NCBI GenBank assembly: GCA_003731685.1
Contig: RCNO01000002.1
Location: forward strand, 54,368 to 113,930
DNA: 59,563 bases
Source of the DNA: Bacteroidetes/Chlorobi group bacterium MS-B_bin-24
GTDB taxonomy: Bacteria; Bacteroidota; Ignavibacteria; Kapaibacteriales; UBA2268
Direction: 5' to 3'
Shown piece by piece: positions 13,930 through 20,106 of the stretch. The number at the start of each line of letters is the position of its first letter. Positions within the stretch are counted from its first letter, which is position 1. The notes beneath the pieces were generated by a model. The model saw only the letters and a list, made by a program, of their open reading frames with translations, made no database searches and was not told where the DNA came from. The position numbers were made by a program, and so were the translations under genes.

Positions 13930-16900
13930 TTACCTCAAAACCACCAACCTTCGTGCAACTCTATGATTACCAACAACAACCTCTACAATGTATGTTCCAT
14001 TTAATATATTCGATATATCCACAGATTTCTTGTAAACTGGCACATTAAAGTCGAGTCGCATTACTTCGCTTCCTGTCAGGTCTCGTATCAAAATTTCCGA
14101 AATCCCGTTCTCACCAGTGGTAACAAATTCCACAAAATTGCTCGCAGGATTAGGATAAATTCTAATGCTTTCGGTTTCATCCTCTACCCCACTGACAAAG
14201 TAAAATGGCTCGGACAACTCGCTTTCGCAACCCGGAGCAGTGGTAACTCTCACTGTGTAGTAGCCAGTCCGCAAAGGCACAATTGTCCTGTTAGTATCGC
14301 CGGGAAGTATTTTGCCATTGAAATACCATTGATTGCCATAAGGAGCACTCGAATAAAGATAACCGCCGCTATCTGCAATAACAGGCTTTTCGGGAAACTT
14401 TGCAATTTTAACTCTTTGGACAATGGAATCCTTGAAGAAAGTATTCGGGAACCATTGAACAAGTTTAACTGAACCAGTTCCAGCCGAACCCCACTTAATC
14501 CAAACTCTTCGATTCGTGGGATTCGAAGTTAATGTTCCACCCTGAACAGACCAACTGTTGTTTGCTCCGAGATTCGACACCGCCTCGAAATATGTCTCGT
14601 TATTCTCGCAAACCAAAGTATCGCCATCAACTTTAAGATATTCAAAAATACGAACAACCATTTCACTTGAATCGTAACAACCAGCAGGAGTTCTTTGCAA
14701 AAGCTTAACTTTTCCAAAGCCAGCCTTGTTCCATCCAACAACAACAGTATCGCCATCATCTCGCCCAACAATTAATCCATTCGTTACGCTCCATTTATTA
14801 CTTACAGTCATATCCGTTCGAGTAGTCACATATTTTTCAATACTTTCGAACATAACCTCTTTTTTACCCGAAATAGTAGCTTCGGGCGTGTGGAAAATAT
14901 CCACTCTCAGTTTGACAGAATCAACACAACCAAATTGGTTAATCCTCTTCAAAATCACATAACCGGGAGTTGTATTCCCCCATTTAATTATAACCACATT
15001 GTCGGCAAGTTTCTTTTCCAATGTTCCATTTTGAACCGACCAAATGTTTTTAATCTGGGAAGAATCAGTAGTAGAGTATATAAAAGACTGCCCAGAACAA
15101 ACACGAGTTTGACCATTGATAATCCTACCCGGTGGTTGCGAAACATTAATCATAACAAATGTGGAATCTTGGCAACCCAACTCATTAATTGCAGTTAAAA
15201 TTACCTTGCCAGAAGTTACTGTATCGAAGCGGACAAAAACAGTATCATCTGTTGGAAGCGATAGCAAAGTTCCGCCCTCGACTCGCCAGAAAAAGTCATT
15301 CCGCAAATCCCACATTCCTTCTCTTTTTGGAAAAGCCCAAAGCTTCACAACATTTCCCGAACAAACAACTGTGTCGCCAATGATTTTTGGATGCGGGACT
15401 TCGATAATTCCAAGATGGTCTTTATATTCCTCAAAATCTGCCACCAAAGGTGGATTTGTCGAAACAATTCTCAATTGATAAGTATAGCCGGGAGAAATAT
15501 TTCGTGGTGCAAGGCAAAGTATTGGCTCTGCAACACGACCTTGTTTCCTTCCAACAACATAAGCACTATCGAAAGAACCCAATGAGTCGCTCAACAAAAC
15601 AATGAAAGTATTCCCCGGTTCAAAAAGATAGAATGTGTAAAAATCAACCAAGAAGGGATTGCCCATACACACACTTTTGTCAAATGGTTTAAATTTTAGC
15701 TCAGGTTTTATAGTATCTTCATTGAACACATAAAGCCCAAAAGCAGTGGATATCCATTTATTATTCGATAAATCAGTAAATACATTATTGAAATTGTTTG
15801 TATAAAATGGAGAATTGTCCTCCGTTAAAATAAATCTGGTTGTATCTTTCCAAACTGCAATGCCACCATTAAACGATGTCATCCAAGCAGTGTTTTTCTT
15901 ATCAATTTCAATGTCAACAACGTTGAAATCAGGGAAGTCCCCAGTTGCAGGATTGTGAACAGTCCAAACACTATCGTAAGTAAACAAACCTTGTTCGCTA
16001 GTCCCAACAAACAATTTGCCATTTTTATCCTCGGCTACATCTGTAATGTACATATTCACAAGCGGAGAGTTCCCTTCGTCAATAAACCAAACAGAATCTC
16101 GGTAGAAAACAGCAATCCCCCGCTCAGCTAAACCTGCATAAACTTTATCTATCCAATCACCATTTTCCTCTAAAACTTTTACTTTGCTTAGCGATGAAAT
16201 CATCCCCTTAAATTTATCACCATACATTGTATCCAACCGAATCCATCTGGAATAGCTTTTTACCACCAATCCCGAATCTGTCCCAACATAAACACCACTC
16301 TCAGCGGGTAAAACACGCAAAATTCTATTGCTTGGCAAATTGATTGTATCGTAGTAATATTCTGTCCAGTCATTCCCATTTTTAACGAACAAACCAGAAT
16401 CAGTAGCAACCCACAGTTTGTTTTCATTGTCTATATTTATATCATTTATGTTAGATTTAATCGGCGAATTGGAACTATCAAAAACTTGCCAGTTGTTGCT
16501 ATCGAACGAAACTAAAGCCGAAGGGGTCGCAATCCACTTAACCAAATCTTTCCCTTCTACAACCTTAACAACATAATTCGTAGGAAGTTTGGAATTTGTA
16601 AAATCAATAACTATGAAATTGGTGTCGTCCAAAACAGAAACTTTGTTTCGAGTGCCAAAGAACTTACGATTTCTACCATCGATAAAGATTGTATTAATGA
16701 AATCATCGGAAATCCGCGAATTGCTGGTGTTAAAAATCCTCCAACCAATCTGCGAGACGAACGCTACGCCCTTGTTGGTTCCAATCCAACGATTACGTGA
16801 TGTATCGAATGCGAAACAAGTAACCATATTGCTCGGCAAAGGTGAATTAGTTGTATCGAAGACATTGAAATTGTCGCCAATCCAATGGACAAGCCCGCCG

Positions 16901-17577
16901 TGAAGGGTTCCAATCCATTTAGAATTATTAAAATTGTCGAACTCTATAAAACTTATGTAATTATCGGGAAGTCCAGAATTTTCGGTATTCCAAACATACC
17001 ATTCGTTCCTATCGAACATACCAATACCATTTGGAGTTCCAACCCAAATGTTGCCAAGCGGGTCAATTTTAACAGTAATCAAATAATCATCAGGAATTCC
17101 TGAGTTCGATGTATTGTAAATTGTCCAAGTTGTGTCGTATTTGTATGCCAAACCATTCCCAGTCGCAATCCACAGACCACCAAGTACATCCCTATAAATG
17201 TCATTGACAATATTCGAAGGAAGAGGCGAGTTGTTCGTGTTGTAAATCAAAATCTGGTTGCTACGATAACGAACAAGTCCCCTATCGGTACAAATCCATA
17301 TCGTATCGTTCGAAAATTTCTTAATATTTCTAATGTTATGGCTTGGGAACTGAAGATAAAGTTTTTGCACAATTCCAACATATTTCATCGAATCGAGATT
17401 GAAAGCCCCAATGCCCGATTCCCGTGAACCGAACAGGAAGATAGAATTGCCATAAACAGGAACAATAGATGTTATGTCATTTCCGTTAAAATAAAACTTG
17501 TAATAAGGATTTTGCTGAGCAAAGAGAAAAACATTTAACCCAGCAAATAAAAGTATTACAATTAATGATTTTTTCAT
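13930..17577 (-). CDS. Secreted propeller/Ig-repeat protein with T9SS sorting tail
   Basis: A 1215-residue exported protein. It has a signal peptide (MKKSLIVILLFAGLNVFLFAQQ). Residues from about 50 to 620 hold some twelve repeats of roughly 44 residues with the pattern 'WIGT..GL...D...W..(Y/F)(N/D)T(S/T)NS.LP.N.I', the regulator-propeller (Reg_prop) repeat. Residues about 725 to 1060 hold four Ig/PKD-like repeats (VCSG...W.V..GTL...I.WG...G.V.L...N..GC.DS). A type A sorting tail with IYPNPASNFVEF and LNGTYIVEV ends the protein. No kinase or DNA-binding domain follows the propeller, so it is an extracellular structural or binding protein, not a sensor kinase. A strong GGAGG lies before the ATG. 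actE ends 15 bases upstream. Confidence 0.88.
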   Translation of the reverse strand: MKKSLIVILLFAGLNVFLFAQQNPYYKFYFNGNDITSIVPVYGNSIFLFGSRESGIGAFNLDSMKYVGIVQKLYLQFPSHNIRNIKKFSNDTIWICTDRGLVRYRSNQILIYNTNNSPLPSNIVNDIYRDVLGGLWIATGNGLAYKYDTTWTIYNTSNSGIPDDYLITVKIDPLGNIWVGTPNGIGMFDRNEWYVWNTENSGLPDNYISFIEFDNFNNSKWIGTLHGGLVHWIGDNFNVFDTTNSPLPSNMVTCFAFDTSRNRWIGTNKGVAFVSQIGWRIFNTSNSRISDDFINTIFIDGRNRKFFGTRNKVSVLDDTNFIVIDFTNSKLPTNYVVKVVEGKDLVKWIATPSALVSFDSNNWQVFDSSNSPIKSNINDINIDNENKLWVATDSGLFVKNGNDWTEYYYDTINLPSNRILRVLPAESGVYVGTDSGLVVKSYSRWIRLDTMYGDKFKGMISSLSKVKVLEENGDWIDKVYAGLAERGIAVFYRDSVWFIDEGNSPLVNMYITDVAEDKNGKLFVGTSEQGLFTYDSVWTVHNPATGDFPDFNVVDIEIDKKNTAWMTSFNGGIAVWKDTTRFILTEDNSPFYTNNFNNVFTDLSNNKWISTAFGLYVFNEDTIKPELKFKPFDKSVCMGNPFLVDFYTFYLFEPGNTFIVLLSDSLGSFDSAYVVGRKQGRVAEPILCLAPRNISPGYTYQLRIVSTNPPLVADFEEYKDHLGIIEVPHPKIIGDTVVCSGNVVKLWAFPKREGMWDLRNDFFWRVEGGTLLSLPTDDTVFVRFDTVTSGKVILTAINELGCQDSTFVMINVSQPPGRIINGQTRVCSGQSFIYSTTDSSQIKNIWSVQNGTLEKKLADNVVIIKWGNTTPGYVILKRINQFGCVDSVKLRVDIFHTPEATISGKKEVMFESIEKYVTTRTDMTVSNKWSVTNGLIVGRDDGDTVVVGWNKAGFGKVKLLQRTPAGCYDSSEMVVRIFEYLKVDGDTLVCENNETYFEAVSNLGANNSWSVQGGTLTSNPTNRRVWIKWGSAGTGSVKLVQWFPNTFFKDSIVQRVKIAKFPEKPVIADSGGYLYSSAPYGNQWYFNGKILPGDTNRTIVPLRTGYYTVRVTTAPGCESELSEPFYFVSGVEDETESIRIYPNPASNFVEFVTTGENGISEILIRDLTGSEVMRLDFNVPVYKKSVDISNILNGTYIVEVVVGNHRVARRLVVLR

Positions 17578-17592
17578 ATAACCTCCAAATGT

Positions 17593-18192
17593 TTATTTAT
17601 TACCTTGTAATTTTCTAATATAATGAATCACACACCACTTGTCAAAATCCGAAAGTTTATCGTGATACGAAAACATCAAATTTTGTCCAGCCGATAGAAT
17701 ATGAAACAGACGTCCATCGGAAAGATTCTTTGCCCTTTCGCTTGTTAAATCCGCAGGCTTTGGAAAGCCTTCTTCGTCTGGTTGCAAAGGTACTTCGGTT
17801 ACAACTGGACCATCCCCCTTCCCAGTGGAATTATGACAAGGAACACAAAAACGATAGAACAATGATTTGCCACGTTCAAGTAAAATTTCGTTATATGGTA
17901 AAGGATTTTTGAAATTCGTCTCCGGTATTGAATATTCTTGCGGTTCAAATGGATAAAAAATTGCCGAGACCGGAAAATTGTTTTTTAAAGGCAATGCATC
18001 GCTACCATACTCTTTCGATAAAGAATAAAGCTTATCCTTCGATATTTTATTCTGTTGGTCCATATCTGCAATTAACTGCATCACTGGTTTTTCTTTATAA
18101 ATCTTTATATATCCTATGTTTAATAGCAACAAAAAAATTAGTATCAAAAATAAAAACGAAAGTATAAAATAAATAGTGAATATTCTTTTCAT
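17593..18192 (-). CDS. Monoheme cytochrome c, ActE-like subunit of alternative complex III
   Basis: A 199-residue membrane-anchored cytochrome c facing the periplasm. The N-terminal hydrophobic helix (about 5-28) could be an anchor. Heme is bound by CVPCH (116-120). The surrounding RGKSLFYRFCVPCHNSTGKGDGPVV matches ActE of the quinol:electron acceptor oxidoreductase (ACIII). The likely axial Met is in LMFSY (M173), where most relatives have MP, and the C-terminus KWCVIHYIRKLQ corresponds to the family's 'DRW..V.YVR.LQ'. It follows actD by 17 bases. The other ACIII genes (actA, B, C, F) are not in the window. Confidence 0.8.
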   Translation of the reverse strand: MKRIFTIYFILSFLFLILIFLLLLNIGYIKIYKEKPVMQLIADMDQQNKISKDKLYSLSKEYGSDALPLKNNFPVSAIFYPFEPQEYSIPETNFKNPLPYNEILLERGKSLFYRFCVPCHNSTGKGDGPVVTEVPLQPDEEGFPKPADLTSERAKNLSDGRLFHILSAGQNLMFSYHDKLSDFDKWCVIHYIRKLQGNK

Positions 18193-18209
18193 ATTTTAAG
18201 TATTTTCTC

Positions 18210-18674
18210 TCATGGAATCAATCTTTTTTCGAAAGTTTGTGGAAAATCATTTACATTGTCATAAAATAATAACAATACTTGCTCATCCTCCAAAGTCGAA
18301 ATTAATTCTTTAATTTCGTCTGGTAAGTGTGTATTGTTAAACTTATTGACAACAAGAAAACGTGCAAAGATAATTAATCCAATTACAATAAGGGTAAGCT
18401 CAAAAGCAAAAATAAAACCTGTTGATAAATGGAAAAATGGCTTGGAACTTAAAATTTGCGGATTATCAATCGAATTTGCCCAATATTGAAAAGTGATGGC
18501 AAAAGCAAATACAATTATTCCAATATAGAACAACGGAAATGAAAACTGCTTGTTGATTTTTCGGGGAACAAAATAGCCTTTTGATGAAAAAACTTCAAAC
18601 CTTCCCCAATTCGATAAAGAAAAGGATTCCAAAAAATTTGAAAGCTCCGATTCCGAAAGAACAATATATTTCAT
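18210..18674 (-). CDS. DUF3341 membrane protein, ActD-like subunit of alternative complex III
   Basis: A 154-residue protein from the ATG at 18674 (a TTG at 18680 is less likely). It has a soluble N-terminal part and two membrane segments, one at about 50-72 leading into FQYWANSIDNP, and one at about 85-115 with FIFAFELTLIVIGLIIF. The 'QWW.N..D.P......P..S.P.F...FELT' pattern is the DUF3341/ActD signature. ActD anchors the c-type cytochromes and lies next to the quinol site. Together with actE downstream this is a two-gene unit. It starts 6 bases after the ricT stop, which suggests cotranscription. Confidence 0.8.
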   Translation of the reverse strand: MKYIVLSESELSNFLESFSLSNWGRFEVFSSKGYFVPRKINKQFSFPLFYIGIIVFAFAITFQYWANSIDNPQILSSKPFFHLSTGFIFAFELTLIVIGLIIFARFLVVNKFNNTHLPDEIKELISTLEDEQVLLLFYDNVNDFPQTFEKRLIP

Positions 18675-18680
18675 AAACAA

Positions 18681-19814
18681 TTAAAAGATGTCGTCTTCGA
18701 GAATCGAAAGGTCTTCGGGACCAAGATTGTATTCCTCGTTGTAAATCTTTTCTTCCTCGGTTTTATCGGGTGGTCGGACTTTCCCAAGCGAGACGAGCCT
18801 ATCAATCTCTTGTTTGGGAAGAACCAAAAGGCTTCCATTGTTTTCCATCAAAATATGAACTTTATGGTTAAAAATGTCAATTTTATGGATACGACCAACC
18901 CCATTGTTTAATTCAACAACGGAAAACATCGGAGGATAATTTTTATACTCTTCGAGATAAACATCGTGTTCATACAAAATGCAACATTTCAAGCGACCGC
19001 AATACCCACTCAACTTCGATACATTGTTTGCCAGCCTTTGAACACGAGCATGCTCTAATGTAACGTGACAATTTTGACAAGCAAAAGTAGAACAACACAA
19101 AGGAAGCCCGCAGGGACCCATTCCCCCAATTCGCCTTGCTTCCTCGCGTGTGCTTGTCTGTCGCAATTCAATTCGTGTTTTATAAATCTTTGCTAGGTCT
19201 TTTACCAGTTCACGGAAATCGACTCTTTGAGGAGCACTAAAATAAATTGTCAGCCTCTGTCGGTCCAATTGCCACTCTGCATCGGTAATTTTTATGTCTA
19301 AATTGTGTTTCTTGCTCAATTCTCGGGTAGTTTCAACAACAAGGGGCTCTTCGTTCCTATTCTTTTCGAAGATTTCCATATCCTTGTCGGTCGCAAATCG
19401 CACGACCGAATATTGAAGTTCTTCCTTCTTGTAATTCTTCTCCCATTTCTCTTTTGCTTCGTTGCCAATAGAAATAACCGTTGCTATATCGAAGCCATTA
19501 TCAACTTCGACAATTACATATTCATAATTATAAAAACTCAAATTGTTGGGATTTTTATATATTTTTTTCCGTTTTACTTTAAAAATAACTTCAACGACTT
19601 CGGAGACCACACTCCGATTTTCGCCATCATATTTTACCTCGCCAACATCGAAAAGCCCAACAAAATCTGTATTGTAATATCGGGTTTCGACACCGCGATT
19701 CGTTTGATTATTTTGACGAAGTATTTGGTAATAATAGGGATTACGCTTCTTTACATTCTGAGAATTCTTTTCCTCGTTCCCAGAACTTTCGGAAATCTGA
19801 TGTATTTGTTCCAT
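18681..19814 (-). CDS. PSP1/RicT-family iron-sulfur-type regulatory protein
   Basis: A 377-residue cytosolic protein whose C-terminal half is the PSP1 domain of RicT (YaaT). In Bacillus, RicT acts with RicA and RicF in an iron-sulfur complex that controls RNase Y. The cysteines are conspicuous: GPCGLPLCC (C235, C240, C241), CQNC (C246, C249) and YCGRLKCC (C272, C277, C278), fitting an Fe-S or metal site. The N-terminal 60 residues are polar and low-complexity. The stop overlaps the actD region (6 bases between stop and actD ATG). No RicA or RicF homologue is nearby. Role in this organism is unknown. Confidence 0.85.
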   Translation of the reverse strand: MEQIHQISESSGNEEKNSQNVKKRNPYYYQILRQNNQTNRGVETRYYNTDFVGLFDVGEVKYDGENRSVVSEVVEVIFKVKRKKIYKNPNNLSFYNYEYVIVEVDNGFDIATVISIGNEAKEKWEKNYKKEELQYSVVRFATDKDMEIFEKNRNEEPLVVETTRELSKKHNLDIKITDAEWQLDRQRLTIYFSAPQRVDFRELVKDLAKIYKTRIELRQTSTREEARRIGGMGPCGLPLCCSTFACQNCHVTLEHARVQRLANNVSKLSGYCGRLKCCILYEHDVYLEEYKNYPPMFSVVELNNGVGRIHKIDIFNHKVHILMENNGSLLVLPKQEIDRLVSLGKVRPPDKTEEEKIYNEEYNLGPEDLSILEDDIF

Positions 19815-20006: not shown

Positions 20007-20062
20007 ACTACAAAATACAAAATTACAAAATTTTTAATTAATAAACAAAAATTATAAAAAAA

Positions 20063-20087
20063 GGCGGGCTTCGAAAAGAAGCCCGCC
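20063..20087 (-). terminator. Strong rho-independent terminator of the 1560-aa cargo gene
   Basis: The arms GGCGGGCTTC and GAAGCCCGCC form a perfect 10-bp GC-rich stem with a 5-base loop. On the minus strand it is followed by a run of seven Ts (from 20062 down). It lies 20 bases after the stop of the minus-strand gene at 20107-24789. Confidence 0.92.
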
Positions 20088-20106
20088 CAAATCGAAAGAG
20101 CACAGA

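Follow-up and report, generated by a model that had tools for sequence, protein, structure and literature searches.

Two genes of alternative complex III (ACIII), actD and actE, lie as a pair in the window, the stretch of 59,563 nucleotides analysed here, and the question is to which complex they belong and where its other subunits are encoded. The source genome is one of the Kapabacteria and falls in the genus of "Ca. Thermonerobacter". An earlier note on this DNA described the pair as a DUF3341 protein (ActD) and an ActE-like monoheme cytochrome, separated by 17 bases and set between unrelated neighbours, and proposed either a split operon or a smaller complex. Our analysis makes it very probable that the pair encodes ActD and ActE of a second ACIII (ACIII-2), whose actA-B-C genes sit on contig C4 of the same chromosome, a five-subunit complex with a split operon and no ActF of its own. 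As far as sequences tell, ACIII-2 is best read as a second quinol:cytochrome c oxidoreductase, an ActF-less variant of ACIII.

The open reading frames confirm the pair as it was described (Table 1). ActD2 matches PF11821 with 47.4 bits (E 2e-12, cut-off 25.7) and carries the motif QYWANSIDNP. It has two transmembrane (TM) helices and retains QYW as well as the Glu of FELT, at the position of Glu122 in R. marinus, which is retained across the genus in our alignment. The AlphaFold model of ActD2 is of modest confidence (mean pLDDT 66), and its four top PDB matches are the solved ActD chains of 6lod, 8k9e, 6f0k and 6btm. ActE2 consists of a cytochrome c domain (PF13442, PF00034) with a single CVPCH, and three solved ActE chains rank among its top sequence hits in the PDB. 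No lipobox Cys is present, and the alignment suggests a TM helix as the likely anchor. It also reveals an insert of the EDEEGFP.P.DLT type that is specific to the clade. The CxxCH motif and the conserved Met of GQNLM are both found and are the predicted His/Met ligands. Previously the axial Met in LMF was taken as unusual. In this ActE clade the Met as a rule stands in NLMF or NLMM, and in the F. johnsoniae ActE in NAMG; LMF thus characterises the clade and does not mean that a ligand was lost. HILSAGQNLMF itself is a trait of nearly the whole ActE2 clade in the alignment.

Table 1. Features around the actD2-actE2 pair (positions in the window)
Feature	Position	Strand	Description
T9SS cargo gene	13930..17577	-	Reg_prop repeats and Por_Secre_tail (Pfam)
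actE2	17593..18192	-	199 aa, membrane-anchored monoheme cytochrome c; CVPCH; axial Met in HILSAGQNLMF
actD2	18210..18674	-	ActD, very probably of ACIII-2; 154 aa from ATG 18674; alternative start TTG 18680 gives 156 aa
ricT (PSP1 domain)	18681..19814	-	PF04468, 106 bits; likely first gene of the transcription unit
Intrinsic-terminator-like site, strong	20062..20088	-	Upstream of ricT; 11-bp stem, 8 GC, T tail; consensus match only

Both neighbours are indeed unrelated to ACIII, as their Pfam domains show, the T9SS sorting domain of the cargo protein included. Spacing is tight, with 6 nt between ricT and actD2, 17 nt between actD2 and actE2 and 15 nt between actE2 and the cargo gene. No terminator is predicted between actD2 and actE2. 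From these short gaps, together with the terminator-like site before ricT, the four genes look like a single transcription unit.

It had been suggested to search the same genome for actA, actB, actC and actF and for a second actDE copy, and both searches were fruitful. With PF11821 a second ActD is found on contig C15, inside an ActD-ActE fusion of 384 aa. This fusion belongs to a complete operon (ACIII-1) of actA (190 aa, five CxxCH), actB (1031 aa), actC (454 aa), actDE and actF (418 aa), which continues with a 302-aa cytochrome, a SCO-type protein and the cytochrome oxidase (cox) genes. A search for NrfD-family proteins reveals a further ActC-like protein on contig C4. Here actA (229 aa), actB (915 aa) and actC (409 aa) stand together, flanked by an HNH gene and htpG-queA, and no gene for D, E or F is found beside them. 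Their family assignments are as expected, and ActC2 scores 262-293 bits against the solved ActC chains, with 293 bits to the F. johnsoniae ActC. The genome has actABC without actDEF at one locus and actDE without actABCF at another.

A complete act operon of which the window pair would be a recent duplicate was the scenario by which the earlier note expected its view to fall. Such an operon exists, yet the window ActE shares only about 32% identity with the ActE portion of the C15 fusion and the two fall in separate clades; the pair is thus no recent copy from ACIII-1. All second-type sequences group in a single clade in both the ActA and the ActE tree (support 100/99), and the ActC tree has the same two-type split, with the window species grouping with its own genus in each tree. 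Homologous A, B, C, D and E subunits are shared by the two complexes, while ACIII-1 has a fused DE, an ActF, an extra cytochrome, linked oxidase genes and slow change, none of which applies to ACIII-2.

In three other genera of the same family (G022, G018 and G009) genes of the ACIII-2 clade form a contiguous actA-B-C-D-E cluster, and no actF follows actE. Locus L113, apparently G060, repeats this order starting with actB, its actA lying past the edge of the contig. Since the second complex is contiguous in these three genera, the window pair is assigned as its D and E. One could also imagine that the pair provides alternative D and E subunits for ACIII-1, swapped with the fused ActDE under some condition, as both sets occur in one genome and are homologous. 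However, the same D/E type clusters with a divergent actA-B-C in the three genera, and ActDE is intact in every ACIII-1 operon examined; such a swap is extremely unlikely. In G018 the actD and actE genes of ACIII-2 are joined in an independent fusion of 376 aa (L081:9026-10156), shortly before the contig end and in addition to the fused pair of ACIII-1. An actD-actE fusion was reported for Melioribacter roseus (PMC3534657).

The assignment of the pair to ACIII-2 is mirrored across the genus. In all five species actA2B2C2 is flanked by the HNH gene and htpG-queA, while actD2E2 has ricT on one side and the T9SS cargo gene on the other. ACIII-2 genes gathered in one act cluster, a criterion for ACIII, are found in the three other genera and in none of these five species. 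G002 (Ca. Kapaibacterium Ch6) consists of one contig, CP058732.1, described as closed and circular, on which the two halves are 0.86 Mb apart; the split is therefore not an assembly artefact. Among the 54 genomes of the family, 12 have an ActE of the second type, and each of the 12 also carries actA, actB or both in the second-type form, at least as a fragment (in pieces in G013 and G026). G013 may hold a second split, with actA2-actB2 (L095:4881-7300, ActB of 589 aa) lacking a following actC and actE2 on another contig (L084:3219-3623), or these may be assembly breaks. The earlier idea of a split operon is right in that actA-B-C are found on C4, but what is split is a second paralogue, in a genome that also has the complete ACIII-1. 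The idea of a smaller complex holds in so far as the contiguous ACIII-2 beside ACIII-1 has five subunits and no ActF, but a complex made of the pair alone finds no support.

In G022 and L113, with their contiguous complex, actE2 is likewise followed by a T9SS cargo gene of similar architecture. When the G022 cargo gene is compared with the window genome, the window cargo gene is its longest and best-scoring match, although over parts of its length other paralogues reach higher identity; the two are probable orthologues. From the like cargo in G022 and L113, the operon probably broke between actC and actD while the cargo gene was kept beside actE. An actA-B-C-D-E cluster would have broken at this point in the ancestor of the genus, and actD-E would have ended up between ricT and the cargo gene.

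The cofactor and quinol residues of ACIII-2 are well conserved. ActA2 has five CxxCH in all five species of the genus. All five Cys motifs of ActB2, with the 15 Cys of four Fe-S clusters, are present in the window genome, G001-G004, G022, G018 and G009. Of ActC2, the quinol-site residues His139, Ser164, Asp169 and Asp253 (here and below in R. marinus numbering; PMC8076601, PMC5928083) are unchanged in nine sequences. Arg196 and Asp197 of the cytoplasmic half-channel are gone in the genus, and Glu338 is replaced by Ile in the window genome. The ACIII-2 proteins look functional, and the altered ActC2 residues hint that their activity might differ from that of an ordinary ACIII. We infer that the five subunits assemble into a complex, in which menaquinol would most likely be oxidised at the ActC site. 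Electrons would then pass from the [3Fe-4S] cluster of ActB via the five hemes of ActA and the ActE heme and reduce a periplasmic acceptor. In the N-domain, which holds no cofactor in the R. marinus structure, the ActB of ACIII-1 (L003:11373-14468, on C15) has a CxxC-type Cys motif and matches Molybdop_Fe4S4 with 46 bits. The motif is absent from ActB2 and from the ActB of G058, a genome of the same order.

ACIII-2 evolves much faster than ACIII-1. Within the genus the identity to the window copy is 52-60% for ActC2 vs 82-94% for ActC1. Compared with R. marinus, the ActC2 proteins of the genus have 43-49% identity in the first half and 28-32% in the second, while the two halves of ActC from ACIII-1 are about equal. 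The N-domain of ActB is also strongly diverged in ACIII-2. Such rates would fit a complex in decay, with little function or none left in the genus, as would an ActD2 of only 97 aa in G001 and an ActB2 shortened by about 330 aa in G013. All frames are open in the five species, however, every cofactor ligand is kept and the split is fixed in the genus. The G022/L113 pair, the only one for which dN/dS was measured (dS is saturated inside the window genus), gives 0.13 for ActB, 0.09 for ActC, 0.20 for ActD and 0.04 for ActE, and ACIII-2 is thus under strong purifying selection in this pair. We regard decay as very improbable.

The lack of an own ActF is the second unusual feature of ACIII-2. ActF is reported to be conserved across species (PMC5928083). 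It belongs to a homologous pair of membrane subunits in which proton paths have been proposed, and has itself no quinone site (PMC8076601). A profile of ten ActF sequences finds exactly one ActF in each genome with both complexes, located in the ACIII-1 operon, and its other clear matches are ActC or ActC-like proteins. No second ActF is found in these genomes, nor does one adjoin the contiguous ACIII-2. With a single actF per two-complex genome, ACIII-2 works without ActF or borrows that of ACIII-1. If borrowed, ActF would give ACIII-2 the usual six subunits in the cell. Consistent with this, every genome among the 54 that has an ActF-less ACIII-2 also carries ACIII-1 with its ActF, and the ActC2 of the genus keeps Ser245, the ActC residue that adjoins Tyr284 of ActF in the structure (PMC5928083). 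However, Ser245 is changed to Ala in G018 and G009. The ActC-ActF interface is formed by helices 2, 5, 6 and 7 (PMC5928083), and ActC2, unlike ActC1, is strongly diverged, above all in the half that contains TMH 6 and 7. Borrowing is therefore rather unlikely. We considered whether a relaxed second half of ActC could mark the loss of ActF and rejected it, since G022, which has no ActF, shows no such relaxation (ratio 1.03), whereas L114 has an ActF and is relaxed (0.72).

Two genomes of another genus, g23 (G026, and G061, which appears to be L114), have only a related complex of the second type, which includes a divergent ActF (L114:5531-11747, with ActB reduced to 653 aa, and L082:6184-11345 in G026). 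Loss of ActF is thus not a trait of the whole clade. Neither ACIII-1 nor COX1 is found in G026 and G061, whose assemblies are incomplete. The g23 complex suggests that an ActF was originally present in the ACIII-2 clade and that complexes related to ACIII-2 can function in the absence of a heme-copper oxidase. Proton pumping by ACIII, through ActC, ActF or both, is a case that rests mainly on structures (PMC5928083, PMC6303296). Having no ActF of its own, ACIII-2 would probably be left with a single proton pathway of the two proposed, that of ActC. With slightly less than even odds, ACIII-2 works as a five-subunit ACIII without any ActF and with an acceptor other than the caa3-type oxidase. 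If so, the subunit with the second proton pathway would be dispensable and an ACIII could serve anaerobic respiration.

As to the acceptor, an own heme-copper oxidase for ACIII-2 is not found, as the sole COX1 of the genus and of G009 adjoins ACIII-1. Neither nitrous oxide reductase nor NrfA follows the distribution of ACIII-2. NosZ occurs in 8 of the 12 genomes with ACIII-2 and in 18 of the 42 without it, being absent from G001, G004, G026 and G061; strong NrfA matches are found in 8 of the same 12 and in about half of the rest.

The electron flow might also be reversed, from periplasmic cytochromes to menaquinone, as in the Qrc complex of sulfate reducers. The genus is a predicted sulfate reducer, and its close relatives Ch6 and Ca. 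T. thiotrophicus possess the complete pathway (PMC7509429, PMC6338057). The menaquinone reductase Qrc consists of QrcABCD (PMC6303296) and is similar to ACIII-2 in having one NrfD-like membrane subunit, a multiheme cytochrome, a cofactor-less domain like that of Mo enzymes and an Fe-S subunit. In its iron-sulfur part ActB2 reaches 165 bits against the QrcC model, which falls far short of the cut-off of 400. However, ActC2 gives no match to the QrcD model NF041784 at E 1e-5 and is an ActC by its score to the F. johnsoniae protein, so ACIII-2 cannot be counted as a Qrc. ActD and a His/Met-type ActE are also present, neither of which is part of the published Qrc, an enzyme of the opposite reaction direction. 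A reversed ACIII-2 is improbable, and menaquinol oxidation remains the preferred reading.

The known ACIII structures of R. marinus (6F0K) and F. johnsoniae (6BTM) likewise have a pentaheme ActA, an ActB with four clusters, a quinol site in ActC, a two-helix ActD and a monoheme ActE. ACIII-2 differs from them in having no own ActF, two loci, a diverged ActB N-domain and a diverged second half of ActC, and in an ActE that has no lipobox Cys and apparently a TM-helix anchor. A second ACIII cluster is also known in Chloroflexus aurantiacus (Cr), which lacks actC, actD and actF and is linked to cox (PMC3150298). It resembles ACIII-2 as a second set without actF, but ACIII-2 keeps C and D. No actABCDE set that lacks actF turned up in the open-access literature. 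The ACIII kind itself is known, and what is new is the split operon and the lack of an own ActF. Five ACIII genes were reported for Ca. Thermonerobacter thiotrophicus (PMC6338057), which is described as probably one species with Ch6 (PMC7509429), and the second set thus seems to have been missed. The genomes of these predicted sulfate reducers were thus read as having a single ACIII, whereas they hold two. Being split and fast evolving, ACIII-2 is hard to see for operon-based annotation. A natural ActABCDE without its own ActF, beside an ordinary six-subunit complex in one cell, offers a ready comparison for the role of ActF.

Two other NrfD-family loci of the genome were noted. A DsrP gene (L013:5793-6944, on C43; NF045798, 465 bits, cut-off 350) has no dsrMKJO neighbours, and a dsrP apart from dsrMKJO is also seen in PMC6338057. 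With this orphan gene, the genus has two complexes with detached membrane subunits. On C61 (L014:368-8224) a PsrABC-like molybdoenzyme set encodes a 734-aa catalytic subunit, a 179-aa ferredoxin-like protein and a 321-aa NrfD, followed by YeeE/YedE-like and rhodanese-like genes; except for NrfD, these assignments were made by eye.
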